From a virus: a DNA stretch of 40,493 bases. The position numbers were made by a program, and so were the translations under genes. The notes under the pieces are model-generated. The model was given only the letters and a program-made list of their open reading frames with translations, was not told the DNA's origin and made no database searches. The DNA lies in the IMG/VR virus record IMGVR_UViG_3300017963_000439, positions 1-40,493 of that record; one strand, written 5' to 3'. Positions within the stretch are counted from its first letter, which is position 1; each line of letters starts with the position of its first letter. Below are positions 1,030 through 31,299 of the stretch, one piece after another.

Positions 1030-1535
1030 TGGGGTTTGGAAATGAGAAAGACGCGAACAGGGTGGAAGCGTTGCAGGGCTTGCGGTGCAGTTATGACGAG
1101 GAAGCGCTTTGCGAGCGGTCGACTAGAGGGCAACAAGGAGTGGAGGAAGAGGCTGTTTTGCAGTCTCTCCTGCGCGAACACGAGAGATGTTGTCGGAGAG
1201 CATGGCCTCTCGTGGCGAGCGAAAAAGCACCTTCTGAGCGCTTGCGAGAATTGCGGGAGCAGGAATCGGCTTTCAGCGCACCATGTCGACGGGAACCGGG
1301 AGAACAACACTCCGGAGAACATCGAGACCCTCTGCGGCAGTTGCCACACTGTTTGGCATCATATGGTGCGGAGGCTTGGCAAAGCGGAGCCTGGGAGGAT
1401 GGTATACCGCGGATAGCTCATGGGGTGGCCGATCGGGTCCACAGAATCAAAGCCCTCGGGAACGGACAGGTTCCGATTGTGGCTGCGCGCGCATTCCGCA
1501 TCCTTGCACAGCGGATAGAGGAGACGGCATCGTGA
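207..1535 (+). CDS. C5 cytosine-specific DNA methyltransferase, interrupted by an HNH insertion
   Basis: This 442-residue protein is a Dcm-type enzyme that would transfer a methyl group from S-adenosylmethionine to C5 of cytosine in phage DNA, probably as protection from host restriction. Visible motifs are I (FAGAGGG from residue 11), IV (GGFPCQ with nucleophile Cys81), VI (ENV, 118-120), VIII (GAPHRRKRLW near 156-165) and X (RIKALGNGQVP near the C-terminus). Between the target-recognition region and motif X lies an insert of about 152 residues that is simply the off-frame reading of an HNH gene. Without it the protein would be about 290 residues, a more usual size. The insert is bounded by a 24-bp imperfect direct repeat and keeps the frame open. 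Whether the enzyme still folds is uncertain. A second protein overlaps it in the +1 frame. Confidence 0.88.
   Translation: MDTRPRHIELFAGAGGGLYASKLLGWRTVCAVEIDEFCQKILVQRQRDGVFEPFALWDDVRTFDGRPWRGRVEVVSGGFPCQPFSVAGKRRGEDDPRNGWPHTIRIIREVRPELAFLENVPGLLARSHGYFGRVLGDLAEAGYHAEWTVLGADDCGAPHRRKRLWLLAWDTHADRGRLAQLTQHDRQPEARFEGPLGDDPFGLHLDMADAEREGLEVGQGERSDARAQREAPQRGGRTQGWWATEPALGGASDGLAARLDKSTPHAPLCLVPWLMGFGNEKDANRVEALQGLRCSYDEEALCERSTRGQQGVEEEAVLQSLLREHERCCRRAWPLVASEKAPSERLRELREQESAFSAPCRREPGEQHSGEHRDPLRQLPHCLASYGAEAWQSGAWEDGIPRIAHGVADRVHRIKALGNGQVPIVAARAFRILAQRIEETAS
964..987 (+). repeat. Direct repeat flanking the HNH insertion, left copy
   Basis: The 24 bases here match 1420-1443 at 20 of 24 positions, and both copies read MGWPxGST in the +1 frame. 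The copies are 456 bases apart, an exact multiple of three, and the HNH gene lies between them. This fits a duplicated target or co-converted flank left by insertion of the HNH element. Confidence 0.7.
1042..1416 (+). CDS. HNH homing-type endonuclease nested in the methyltransferase gene
   Basis: This is a 124-residue HNH nuclease. The N-terminal half has a Cys4 zinc knuckle (CRACG, then FCSLSC). The C-terminal half has CENCG, then the catalytic HNH core (SAHHVDGNRENNTPENIETL) and CGSCHTVWHH. The length and domain order are typical of free-standing phage HNH endonucleases, which cut one or both strands at a related site and spread by repair. It lies in the +1 frame inside the first methyltransferase gene. 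The start is ATG 1042; a TTG two codons earlier is possible. No clear Shine-Dalgarno sequence is visible. About 75 bases of the 456-base insert are left outside the gene, too few for a group I intron core. Confidence 0.85.
   Translation: MRKTRTGWKRCRACGAVMTRKRFASGRLEGNKEWRKRLFCSLSCANTRDVVGEHGLSWRAKKHLLSACENCGSRNRLSAHHVDGNRENNTPENIETLCGSCHTVWHHMVRRLGKAEPGRMVYRG
1420..1443 (+). repeat. Direct repeat flanking the HNH insertion, right copy
   Basis: This copy reads MGWPIGST in the +1 frame and continues to a TAG at 1516, giving a plausible original C-terminus for the overlapping protein at 202-1029. In the methyltransferase frame the same bases lead directly into motif X. It matches 964-987 at 20 of 24 positions. 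Confidence 0.7.
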
Positions 1536-3920: not shown

Positions 3921-4129
3921 TCGGAATACAAACCAACGAGCAGCGCGTCCGGATGATGGCAGAAGCCCTCGATCGTCTCGGCTTCTACAACGAAGCACGA
4001 CGAGTCGAAGCGCAGTATTCGGCTTATACGCGCGGCGGTGTTGTTGTTCTGCACCTCGACACGCTCGAGGCTCTCGTGGAGATCGCGCTTGAGCGGAAGG
4101 ACTTGACGAAGGGCAACGACTCAGGGTAA
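3917..4129 (+). CDS. Small hypothetical protein
   Basis: This 70-residue protein starts at an ATGA junction with the second methyltransferase. It is predicted to be mostly helical (EQRVRMMAEALDRLGFYNEA, then LDTLEALVEIALERKDL) with no recognisable motif. It closes the first gene block; the control region 4130-4377 follows. Codon use matches the neighbours, supporting a real gene. Confidence 0.6.
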   Translation: MIGIQTNEQRVRMMAEALDRLGFYNEARRVEAQYSAYTRGGVVVLHLDTLEALVEIALERKDLTKGNDSG

Positions 4130-4255
4130 CGTCGAGATGTTCGGGCAGCCGTTGTCGACAGCAACGGCCGGACATGCAGGAATGGAACTAGGGGGGAACG
4201 GTGGTGGTCCCATCGGCGTTGCATACGTGCGCGCTGTTGACAACAGAATACAGTT

Positions 4256-27675: not shown

Positions 27676-30600
27676 TTGCAGCACGACCGCATCTATCAAA
27701 GCGTCTACATCACGGACCCAGGCGACCTCGATATCGTCGCGTCTGCGTGCCGGAGTTCGAAGACGATCGGGCTCGACCTCGAGACCACGAGCTTCGACCC
27801 GCGGCTCGGCAAGCCGCGGCTGTTGTCTTTGAATCCGGACGCGTCTCCGGACATTTTCGTGGTGGACCTCTTCCGCGTGGGCGGCATGGGTCCGATTCGT
27901 GAGGAGCTCCACAACCCGGATGCGGAGGTGCGCGGGCGCCCCATAGTGGTGGGGCAGAACCTGAAGTTCGACCAGAAGTGGCTCCTGCACCACTTCGATG
28001 TAGCTCTGTGGCCGATCTTCGATACGTATCGCGCGTCGAAGCTCCTGCACAACGGCCGCAAGGCGGGCCACAAGCTCGAAGAACTCTACCAGCGCGAGCT
28101 GGACACCGACACGAAGGTGCCGGCCATGGGCGGTTCGGATTGGGGCGCGGAGGAGCTCTCCGGGGTCCAGCTCGACTACGCCACGGAGGACGTCTTCTTC
28201 CTTCCGATGCTGCGCGACAAGCTGCGGCCCAAGCTCGGCGACAAGGGACTCAACAAGGTCGCGCTCCTCGAGTTTCAGGCGGTATTGCCCGAGGCGAGCA
28301 TGGAGCTCAACGGCTTTCGTATCGACCGGGAGAAGTGGCTGGCGCTTTCTAACGCGAACTGGGTGAAGGCGCAGCGGCTTCGGGATGAGCTCCTCGAAGA
28401 GCTTCCGCATCCAGACGGCCAGGTGGGTCTGTTCGGTGGAGCGCCGTGGAATCTGGACTCCCCCGACCAGATGCTCCGTTCTCTGGAGCGGAAAGGGATC
28501 AAGCTGGCGGACACGCGTCGCACGACCATGAAGATGCAGGCTGCGAAGCATCCGATCATCGACCGTATTGTGTCGTATCGTGAGGCTTCGAAGCGCTGGT
28601 CGGCTTTCGGGCCTGACTACCTGCAGCATCTGCACCCCGTGACGGGCAGGGTGCACACCTCCTTCTACCCTTTCACGGGGGCAGGAAGGTACGCTTGCCT
28701 CGCTGCGGGGTCCCCTGTTCGCACGTCGACAGGCGAACGGCCGATCGAGGCAGTGAAGGTCGGCGACTTCGTATGGACGCATAGAGGTCGATGGCGCCCC
28801 GTCGTGGCGACGCATCAGAAGGGACTGCGGGAGGCGTATGTCGTCCGGTTTAGCAGCGGGGATATTTTGACTTGCGCGTCGTCCCATCGCTTCCTATCCT
28901 CGGGAGGTGAGTGGCTAGACGTGGAGGGCATGTATCGTGAGTATTTCGAAGACGTGGATGGCGGAGCAGTCGAACATCGATGCGGCAGTTCGGTTGTATC
29001 GGAGTCCGAGGCTATTGACGCTGCAGCAGATCGCGGACGAGCTCGGAACAACCTTTCACAACGTGCAGCACGCGATGAAGGTCGGGATGCCGCAGTCGGA
29101 GAGGAAGGCGCAAAAGGCGCTACGTTATTCAGCCACGAAGAAGGGGTCCAAGAATCCGATGTGGGGGAAGAAGGGGGAGGAGCACCACAACTGGAAAGGG
29201 CAGTGCGAGGACGGCTATGGCTACCTGACGTGCCTTCACGACGGGAAACGCCAATTCGTGCATCGGGTAGTCATGGCGGAGGCACTGGGACTTCGGGAGA
29301 TTCCGGAGAGCTTTTCGGTGCATCACATCGATGGCGACACGCGGAACAATGCGCTCGACAACTTGGCTCTGGTGACGAATGCCGGGCACCAAGCCTTGCA
29401 CTATATGCAGGCCAAGGACAGCCTCTCGTTGCAGTTGAAGCGATCTACCCTTGCGGAAGTGTTGAGGTCTATGACCTCACCGTAGAGGAGGACGAGAGCT
29501 ACGAGTCGGCAGGTGTATTTTCCCACAATAGTTCGAGTCCGAACCTGCAGCAGATACCTCGAGGGAAGGCTTTTCGAGCCTGCTTTTGCCCTGAAGTCGG
29601 TTGGGTGCTCATCGGCGCCGACTACAGTCAAATCGAGCTTCGCATTATGGCGCAGCTCTCGATGGACCCGGTGCTGCTCGACATCTTCCGCTCAGGCAAG
29701 GATCCGCACCGCATCACGGCGAGCATCGTCCTCGGCATCCCTGTGGAGGAGGTGACGGACGAGCAGCGCCAGATGGCGAAGCCTATCAACTTTGGGCTGA
29801 TCTACGGCCTCATGCCGAAGAAGCTGGTCACGTATGCGTGGGCCAACTACGGCGTGAAGATGACGGAGGAGCAGGCGACGACCTTCTACAATCGCTTCTT
29901 CGAGGCGTACGAAGGTGTGCGGCGTTGGCAGCGGCACGTCATGAATTGGCAGCGCCCGAAGGGCTTCTCAAGGACGCTCGGCGGCCGGCTGCGCTACCTC
30001 GAGTCGGATGCGGACTACAACAACTTCTACAACTGCGTCGATGCCGAGACGGAGGCGCTCACGCGGCGAGGGTGGGTGAAGGGGCCGGACCTTCGGAGGG
30101 AGGATGTGCTGCTGACGAAGAGCGCGGACACGGGTGCGCTGGAATGGCAGCCGATGACGGATCTGAAGCTCTTTCCGGACTACAAGGGTCGTCTGGTGTC
30201 TTTCCGATCGAGGACATTCAATGCGGTCACGACTCCGGAGCACAGGTGGCTTGTGAGTGACAAGCACTCTGGCGAGGATGTGTGTCGTACGAGCGATCGT
30301 CTCTCGCAATGGGGGGACCACAGGATCCATCGGGTCGGATTCTATGATGGTCCGAAGCCGACCTTCTCAGATGACTTCGTGGAGCTCGCTGGGTGGCTTT
30401 TCACGGACGGCACTCTGTGCGAGCAGAAGGGGCGCAAGGTGGCGAGGCTGTATCAGAGTGCGCGGGCCAATCCGGAGAAGGTCGATCGGATCGATACGCT
30501 CTTTGAGCGCCTCGGAGCGGAGGTGTTGACCGGCCGTTACTACTATCCGAAGCACGGGCATCGAGTGACGTGGGAACTCCGGAGGGAGCACGCGGAGAGG

Positions 30601-31299
30601 CTCCACAAGGCTTTCCCGGGGCGTCTCCCGACGGCAGGCTTCCTGAACGGGTTGTCGAGAGAGCAGGCGCAGCTACTCCTGGAAGTAATGCTCCTTGGCG
30701 ATGGGTGGACAGAGGATGGCGGCCGTCGTCGCTTCTGTTGTCGGTCGAAAGCGGCCGCCGACGCTTTTCAGGTGGTCTGCGTGCTGGCAGGCGTGGCGAC
30801 GACGTGCGTGGAGCGCGATATGTCGAAGTACGAGCCGAAGTCGGAGAAGCTCTCGAACGTTCCGAAGGGCGGCAGGCACTACGTCGTCAACCTGTTGAAG
30901 CGCACGCATGTGCAGGTGCTTCAGGGTCATCGTGAGGACCGGGATGTAGACGGCGCCTTTGTGTGGTGTCCGGTCGTTCCGAACACGTACTTCGTGGCTC
31001 GGCGCGAGGGGCAGGTCTATGTCACGGGCAACACTCCGGACCAGGGCACCGGCGCGGACGGCCTCAAGAACGCCTTGTGGAAGGTTTACCACCGGCTCCG
31101 CCGCTTCGGGGACGACGTGCGAATGGTCCACATGGTGCACGACGAGATCATCGCTGAGGCCCGCGATGACGAGGGCCTTGTGGAGGAGGTCAAGGTCGAG
31201 ATCGAGCTGGGGATGAAGGAGGGGATCCAACCCTTCCTGCCCGATGTTCCGGTCGAGGTCGACGCGCATTCTGGCTACAGTTGGGCAGAGATTCACTGA
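27676..31299 (+). CDS. Family A DNA polymerase precursor with two inteins
   Basis: The 1207-residue precursor would give a 596-residue polymerase after loss of two inteins (residues 341-618 and 787-1119). The N-terminal 3'-5' exonuclease has motifs I (GLDLETTSFD), II (VVGQNLKFDQKW) and III (LDYATEDVFF). The polymerase domain has motif A (GADYSQIELRIMAQLS), motif B (RQMAKPINFGLIYG) and motif C (MVHDEI). There is no 5' nuclease domain. It is the phage replicative polymerase. The start is TTG 27676 after GGGGGTGAGGA; no better ATG exists near. The first intein sits in the conserved region before SSSPNLQQIP and the second in the NTPDQGTGAD segment, both near the catalytic centre. Confidence 0.9.
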   Translation: MQHDRIYQSVYITDPGDLDIVASACRSSKTIGLDLETTSFDPRLGKPRLLSLNPDASPDIFVVDLFRVGGMGPIREELHNPDAEVRGRPIVVGQNLKFDQKWLLHHFDVALWPIFDTYRASKLLHNGRKAGHKLEELYQRELDTDTKVPAMGGSDWGAEELSGVQLDYATEDVFFLPMLRDKLRPKLGDKGLNKVALLEFQAVLPEASMELNGFRIDREKWLALSNANWVKAQRLRDELLEELPHPDGQVGLFGGAPWNLDSPDQMLRSLERKGIKLADTRRTTMKMQAAKHPIIDRIVSYREASKRWSAFGPDYLQHLHPVTGRVHTSFYPFTGAGRYACLAAGSPVRTSTGERPIEAVKVGDFVWTHRGRWRPVVATHQKGLREAYVVRFSSGDILTCASSHRFLSSGGEWLDVEGMYREYFEDVDGGAVEHRCGSSVVSESEAIDAAADRGRARNNLSQRAARDEGRDAAVGEEGAKGATLFSHEEGVQESDVGEEGGGAPQLERAVRGRLWLPDVPSRRETPIRASGSHGGGTGTSGDSGELFGASHRWRHAEQCARQLGSGDECRAPSLALYAGQGQPLVAVEAIYPCGSVEVYDLTVEEDESYESAGVFSHNSSSPNLQQIPRGKAFRACFCPEVGWVLIGADYSQIELRIMAQLSMDPVLLDIFRSGKDPHRITASIVLGIPVEEVTDEQRQMAKPINFGLIYGLMPKKLVTYAWANYGVKMTEEQATTFYNRFFEAYEGVRRWQRHVMNWQRPKGFSRTLGGRLRYLESDADYNNFYNCVDAETEALTRRGWVKGPDLRREDVLLTKSADTGALEWQPMTDLKLFPDYKGRLVSFRSRTFNAVTTPEHRWLVSDKHSGEDVCRTSDRLSQWGDHRIHRVGFYDGPKPTFSDDFVELAGWLFTDGTLCEQKGRKVARLYQSARANPEKVDRIDTLFERLGAEVLTGRYYYPKHGHRVTWELRREHAERLHKAFPGRLPTAGFLNGLSREQAQLLLEVMLLGDGWTEDGGRRRFCCRSKAAADAFQVVCVLAGVATTCVERDMSKYEPKSEKLSNVPKGGRHYVVNLLKRTHVQVLQGHREDRDVDGAFVWCPVVPNTYFVARREGQVYVTGNTPDQGTGADGLKNALWKVYHRLRRFGDDVRMVHMVHDEIIAEARDDEGLVEEVKVEIELGMKEGIQPFLPDVPVEVDAHSGYSWAEIH
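28696..29529 (+). mobile_element. Polymerase intein 1 with an out-of-frame HNH gene in its linker
   Basis: This 278-residue intein starts with Cys (CLAAGSPVRTSTGERPIEAV, block A), has a block B-like LTCASSHRFLSSGGEW, and ends EVYDLTVEEDE then VFSHN before Ser. The middle of about 130 residues has biased composition (Gly, Glu, Arg, Ala) and no endonuclease motif in this frame, because the same DNA encodes an HNH protein in the +1 frame (28937-29485). Splicing domains look complete. Confidence 0.85.
28937..29485 (+). CDS. HNH homing endonuclease encoded out of frame inside polymerase intein 1
   Basis: This 182-residue protein is complete. It has an N-terminal helix-turn-helix (LLTLQQIADELGTTFHNVQH), a NUMOD3-like segment (GSKNPMWGKKGEEHHNWKG), and the HNH core (FVHRVVMAEALGL, then VHHIDGDTRNNALDNLALVT, then HQALHY). 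Domains, length and order match free-standing phage HNH homing endonucleases. GTG 28937 has GGAGG nine bases before it; ATG 28958 is an alternative. It reads in the +1 frame relative to the polymerase and stays wholly within intein 1. It would cut an intein-less or HNH-less allele so that the element is copied in. Confidence 0.85.
   Translation: MSISKTWMAEQSNIDAAVRLYRSPRLLTLQQIADELGTTFHNVQHAMKVGMPQSERKAQKALRYSATKKGSKNPMWGKKGEEHHNWKGQCEDGYGYLTCLHDGKRQFVHRVVMAEALGLREIPESFSVHHIDGDTRNNALDNLALVTNAGHQALHYMQAKDSLSLQLKRSTLAEVLRSMTSP
30034..31032 (+). mobile_element. Polymerase intein 2 (LAGLIDADG type)
   Basis: This 333-residue in-frame intein starts CVDAETEALTRRG, has block B AVTTPEHRWLVSD, and LAGLIDADG-like motifs LAGWLFTDGTL and LLEVMLLGDGWTEDG. 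It ends YFVARREGQVYVTGN before Thr. It splits the Asn from the conserved TPxQGxxAD polymerase segment. Confidence 0.92.

Follow-up and report, generated by a model that had tools for sequence, protein, structure and literature searches.

An HNH endonuclease gene nested in the +1 frame of a viral DNA polymerase intein

Introduction

Inteins are usually described as splicing and nuclease domains fused in one polypeptide. In 2009 Dassa et al. reportedly described a second arrangement, fractured genes, in which split inteins lie around a free-standing endonuclease gene. HNH endonucleases are also carried by group I introns of polA (I-PfoP3I, I-HmuI, phiL7, PhAPEC; PMC3428280), and I-PfoP3I nicks 4 nt upstream of its own intron insertion site (PMC3428280). 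That an endonuclease gene can join a splicing element at a shared target has been proposed for mobile introns, according to work cited in PMC3428280. HNH genes lying out of frame have been published for phage methylases (ShiLan, 2025; PMC11855218). Our literature search for out-of-frame endonucleases inside inteins found only this methylase work and one announcement (PMC12613952); a preprint on actinobacteriophage inteins of 'non-canonical architecture' (Gosselin et al., 2025, as cited in PMC11855218) may overlap with the present work and, as far as that citation goes, may describe out-of-frame cases.

Here we analyse a stretch of 40,493 bases (G+C 0.63) from an IMG/VR virus record, hereafter the window, in which a family A DNA polymerase gene carries two inteins. 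The first (intein 1) shares with fractured genes a separate endonuclease gene between intein halves, but it is contiguous and in cis. With canonical inteins of the PI-SceI type (PMC6801210) it shares the Hint-fold ends, the Cys1 and His-Asn|Ser junctions, the position of the nuclease and the conserved host motif; in canonical inteins, however, the nuclease is within the intein polypeptide, whereas intein 1 has a separate +1 ORF and a filler that is predicted to be disordered, and in neither the window nor more than 30 relatives does the endonuclease share the frame of the splicing segments. The kind of HNH and the polA motif, with insertion points a few codons apart, link it to the polA intron endonucleases (PMC3428280), whose carrier is a self-splicing RNA with stops in the host frame rather than a protein intein with none. 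As seen in ShiLan (PMC11855218), the HNH is read in a frame other than that of its host ORF, which is open throughout, and it starts with GTG and is sporadically distributed, but the ShiLan insertion lacks the splicing domains of intein 1, occupies the third frame and resides in another host gene.

Results

The polymerase gene and its two inteins

The polymerase ORF (27676-31299, plus strand, as are all window features below; Pfam DNA_pol_A, exo1 and Hint_2) encodes 3'-5' exonuclease and polymerase domains in a frame that runs without a stop from end to end, and the frame break between intein halves that marks a split intein or fractured gene is thus absent from it. Intein 1 (278 aa) occupies 28696-29529, the same limits as in the original prediction, from Cys at 28696-28698 (GAGRYA|C) to Asn at 29527-29529 (SHN|SSSPNLQ), and interrupts the PolA motif TGR(L/Y)(S/A)|...|SxPNLQQIP, at which relatives have empty sites. 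Its N-terminal splicing segment (residues 1-84, 28696-28947), delimited by alignment and by pLDDT >90, contains Cys1, the block B His64 and Ala61 replacing the usual Thr, and its C-terminal splicing segment (residues 245-278, 29428-29529) contains Asp260, His277 and Asn278, with the first half double-coding with the tail of the HNH gene. Between them a filler in the polymerase frame (residues 85-244, 28948-29427) is open, predicted to be disordered and not conserved as a protein. The residues C1, H64, D260, H277 and N278 are invariant among 29 aligned inteins, the +1 residue is Ser or Cys in every intein compared, and intein 1 matches the intein C-terminal motif TIGR01443, so that the residues of a class 1 cis-splicing intein are all present except the Thr of block B. 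At that position GCG (28876-28878) encodes Ala, where at least 90% of the relatives have Thr, and splicing of intein 1 may be slow as a consequence.

In an AlphaFold model of intein 1, run with 29 intein sequences, residues 1-84 and 245-278 were mostly predicted at pLDDT >90 and residues 88-240 mostly at <50. The best PDB match in Foldseek was the Npu DnaE intein (E=1.7e-6, TMt 0.78), and the model places the two ends, at high confidence, in a Hint fold with a disordered middle. Both the alignment and this predicted fold agree with the original prediction that the splicing blocks stand in the polymerase frame, and its further claim that the linker lacks a nuclease also held, as the polymerase frame showed no nuclease domain between the blocks.

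Intein 2 of the same gene (333 aa, 30034-31032; NC|VDAETEAL...TGN|TP) is, in contrast to intein 1, of the ordinary in-frame endonuclease type, with in-frame LAGLIDADG-type motifs at 30385-30411 and 30688-30708, and has a counterpart in loci L056-L060. Loci L074, L060 and L062 carry an extra PolA insertion downstream of intein 1 (DYC|VVGGTR...HN|SQIE), apparently an in-frame LAGLIDADG intein that would bring these polymerases to three inteins each.

A complete HNH gene in the +1 frame

The putative homing endonuclease gene (182 aa; HNH_3, E=1.1e-12) runs from GTG at 28937 to a stop ending at 29485 in the +1 frame of its host, with a Shine-Dalgarno-like GGAGG (28923-28927) 9 nt upstream of the GTG. 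The protein has a helix-turn-helix at about residues 27-47 followed by an HNH_3 domain (107-152) in which H129/H130, N142, H151 and H155 are conserved. Its AlphaFold model (mean pLDDT 84) is ordered and shows an N-terminus that is helical and HTH-like, followed by an HNH domain; an intact His-Asn-His is thus combined with a predicted DNA-binding module, as in HNH homing endonucleases. The best PDB match was I-HmuI, and this match was weak (E=0.04, prob 0.99). Compared by position in the fold with canonical inteins (PMC6801210), the gene appears to occupy the place within the Hint fold where endonucleases are normally inserted. A complete gene with its own GTG and GGAGG in the +1 frame had been anticipated and is present, but it is not confined to the linker as had been thought: it runs on for its final ~20 codons into the sequence of the C-terminal splicing strand, and both proteins are conserved across this overlap.

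An alignment of the relatives argues that the start is the gene's own, as originally proposed. The start column holds ATG, GTG or TTG in 31 of 32 rows, compared with 0-7 of 32 in the adjacent columns, and 97% of the HNH starts are preceded by a match of 4 nt or more to the Shine-Dalgarno sequence, versus 29% of control start-like codons. The Shine-Dalgarno-like stretch overlaps conserved host codons, and its conservation could partly be theirs.

The same layout in divergent viruses

Relatives were gathered by viral scans with the HNH protein and with its alignment and by one prokaryote genome scan, which together recovered about 35 full-length HNH relatives, most of them on metagenomic contigs. 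More than 30 viral contigs, of G+C 0.38-0.68, share the layout at the same PolA motif (L074/L060, L076-L089, L003-L007, L091-L104, L144, L178). Among relatives with E<1e-25, a set that includes near-copies, the HNH gene lies wholly inside one long open frame as its +1, with none in +2, the exceptions being a free-standing gene (L100) and an intron-like insertion in polA (L105). The hosts are of the PolA family, with flanks that vary slightly around ..(T/S)GR(L/Y/F/M)(S/A)|C ... HN|(S/C)xxPNLQ(N/Q)(I/L)P. The distance from Cys1 to the HNH start is 72-88 codons in nearly all loci (80.33 in about half), and that from the HNH end to the final intein Asn is 4-29 codons, mostly 9-18. The hosts themselves are very diverse, the exteins of the relatives' polymerases being only ~20-50% identical to that of the window, while the nearest relatives have 63-68% HNH identity. 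In 97% of pairs the HNH proteins show higher identity than the exteins, which is compatible with horizontal spread of the element, but slower evolution of the HNH could produce the same pattern. The out-of-frame HNH gene of intein 1 is therefore real, and is neither a product of chance nor a sequencing error.

Selection on both frames

Synonymous codons were rearranged so that neither the HNH protein nor its codon usage changed, and host-frame stops were counted. The shuffled window sequences had a mean of 5.5 stops where none is observed, and 0 of 2000 shuffles reached zero. Summed over 33 loci (31 without near-copies), no host-frame stop is present against ~226 expected, while HNH relatives that are free-standing or intron-borne have 5-37 stops in the corresponding frame. 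Selection that keeps the polymerase frame free of stops is thus evident from these sequences. The HNH protein of the window is 66% identical to that of L074, compared with 36% for the polymerase-frame filler in the same register; changes between the two loci are commonest at HNH third positions, and 74% of fourfold sites differ. Substitutions follow the HNH codon frame, indicating that the HNH is the constrained protein in the middle of the intein and that the polymerase frame is constrained chiefly against stops. This agrees with the original prediction that the polymerase frame survives there merely as filler, and leaves no sign of a linker conserved in that frame, which had been named as a result that would count against it.

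Discussion

Alternative explanations

The nuclease could be made by programmed +1 frameshifting from the polymerase frame, as a fusion of the intein N-terminal part and the HNH. The +1 relation that this requires is indeed constant throughout the clade, but the conservation of the start column and the Shine-Dalgarno-like sequence upstream of it speak for separate initiation, and in the aligned rows inspected a stop in the HNH frame lies just upstream of the start, immediately so in L074 and L086 and six codons away in the window (TAG, 28916-28918), which leaves scarcely any room for a frameshift fusion. We regard this route as unlikely. Still less likely is RNA splicing, in which a group I or other intron within the intein would comprise the HNH region and be lost from the mRNA, even though group I introns of polA encode the nearest relatives of this HNH found in cultured phages. 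Between the two splicing segments the entire gap is taken up by the HNH gene, which even runs into the C-terminal segment and leaves no space for a ribozyme outside the ORF, whereas intron loci carry non-coding sequence on both sides of the HNH ORF before the exons resume; an open host frame under selection would also be unexpected for a spliced intron. An Rfam scan for an intron gave no match, but the same scan missed known group I introns including that of Pf-WMP3.

The high G+C of the window leaves many spurious frames open, and the element might accordingly be a decaying one, with an HNH relic and a polymerase frame open by chance. The synonymous shuffles reject chance, as does the occurrence of the layout at G+C 0.38 (L086) and 0.41 (L085) and more generally in loci at 0.38-0.49, and we discarded high G+C as the cause of the open frame; the HNH residues are intact and the substitutions point to purifying selection in the HNH frame, making decay a very improbable reading. 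Assembly or sequencing frameshifts that split an ordinary in-frame HNH intein, a possibility raised with the original prediction, would require one shift in and one shift back across the N block, the HNH and the C block, since both splicing blocks already stand in one frame and a lone frameshift would not suffice to bring the HNH into it. The same frame relation recurs in more than 30 contigs from different studies and of different G+C, with the polymerase frame always open, and this explanation was rejected as having a negligible chance of being correct.

Proposed mechanism and origin

The locus is very probably a mobile intein in a phage PolA whose HNH is an independently translated gene overprinted in the +1 frame. 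Ribosomes in the polymerase frame would produce a precursor with two folded mini-intein halves around a disordered spacer of ~160 residues, from which the intein would be excised by protein splicing, and ribosomes initiating at the internal GTG, a start whose conservation is observed, would produce the 182-aa HTH-HNH endonuclease. This enzyme would then cut or nick intein-free polA near the TGRLSSSxPNLQ motif, and repair would copy intein and nuclease as one unit. Cleavage of the empty allele is suggested by the sporadic distribution of the intein among empty sites and by the activity of I-PfoP3I (PMC3428280). Splicing and nuclease would thus be decoupled in translation while using the same DNA. 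The genetic code itself may favour this frame: with the nuclease in the host +1 frame, every host stop has its T at an HNH wobble position, so that all host stops can be removed synonymously, whereas in +2 a Met followed by a residue with only A-starting codons makes a stop unavoidable, and the HNH of the window has two such places. The terminase class described below shows that +2 is possible nonetheless.

The closest cultured-phage relatives of the HNH lie between polA exons and are intron-borne according to the annotation of several records, and among the cultured relatives inspected no PolA phage had the nested form, all having introns or separate ORFs. In the translated flanks of these introns, exon 1 ends at TGRLSSSxP or TGRLSSSxPNL, ~3-7 codons from the insertion point of the intein. 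A polA group I intron-type HNH gene probably moved into a mini-intein with almost the same DNA target, and entry at a shared target appears to be the simplest history. The nested HNHs form one supported group in the tree (97/92), with the free-standing L100 inside it and the intron HNHs apart, suggesting that +1 nesting probably arose once in this HNH clade. Other states exist at the same PolA site: it is empty in many loci (among them L056-L059 and L063-L072), L073 has a LAGLIDADG intein of the in-frame kind, and L177 (around 4001-4138, GC 0.34) has a mini-intein of 131 aa that lacks a nuclease and may represent a state before or after that of the nested inteins. A further PolA intein at this site (L176, 2589-3995) has a DUF559-type nuclease nested in +1, with no host stop against 8.75 expected. 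A survey of the site with the C-terminal block covered at least 13 loci, a sample from which the frequencies of the intein types at the site are not estimable.

Other nested endonucleases

On balance, we think it probable that nesting in another frame is a general way of building mobile inteins, a third one next to in-frame fusion and splitting. It would have arisen several times (HNH or DUF559 in +1 of PolA, and the terminase +2 and DnaE-like +1 cases below), would allow endonuclease genes of the intron or free-standing kind to be carried by an intein with no fusion to the splicing protein, and would be a step on the way to fractured genes and their split inteins. The layout would then be a largely overlooked build of mobile elements. 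It suggests a route into inteins for intron-borne and free-standing endonucleases and, as a plausible intermediate stage, links ordinary inteins with those that are split and have their endonuclease encoded separately. Searches for intein nucleases are affected, as annotation shows the filler alone.

A different HNH, consisting of HNH_3 and a Cys-rich, probably zinc-binding tail, lies in the host +2 frame of inteins in the terminase large subunit at eight loci (L187, L188, L191, L126, L138, L139, L147, L017). These have no host stop against ~18 expected in sum, the single loci being weak at ~1-5 each. Two are from cultured phages, Acinetobacter phage Highwayman (L187) and Tetrasphaera phage TJE1 (L188), in which the annotated TerL hides the HNH, and the terminase version is thus open to laboratory tests. 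In Vibrio phage 1.238.A (L189), annotated as TerL plus a 'hedgehog/hint domain protein', the terminase intein halves share one frame with stops between them and the HNH is in +2, and this locus looks like a split or fractured form of the nested terminase class. A relative of the terminase HNH also occurs as a free-standing gene (L190, 2495-3136) in Acinetobacter phage BP10, where it immediately precedes terminase genes that are intact; the version in phage Highwayman, by contrast, is nested.

In an intein of a DnaE-like polymerase (L014, 4905-5498), an HNH gene is nested in +1 with no host stop against 7.5 expected; it is placed near the intein N-terminus and not at the usual loop. A separate HNH ORF of the window (1036-1416) scores just under the cut-off for PF01844 and lies within an ORF for a C5-cytosine methyltransferase (207-1535) as its +1 frame, where no host stop occurs against 6.1 expected. 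The original prediction that one mechanism made both HNH genes of the window holds in part: the second is also in +1 of an open host frame, but it is of a different HNH family and no intein splicing blocks were seen around it. It resembles the published ShiLan insertion (PMC11855218) rather than intein 1, and locus L165 has an uninterrupted methyltransferase relative that lacks the HNH segment.
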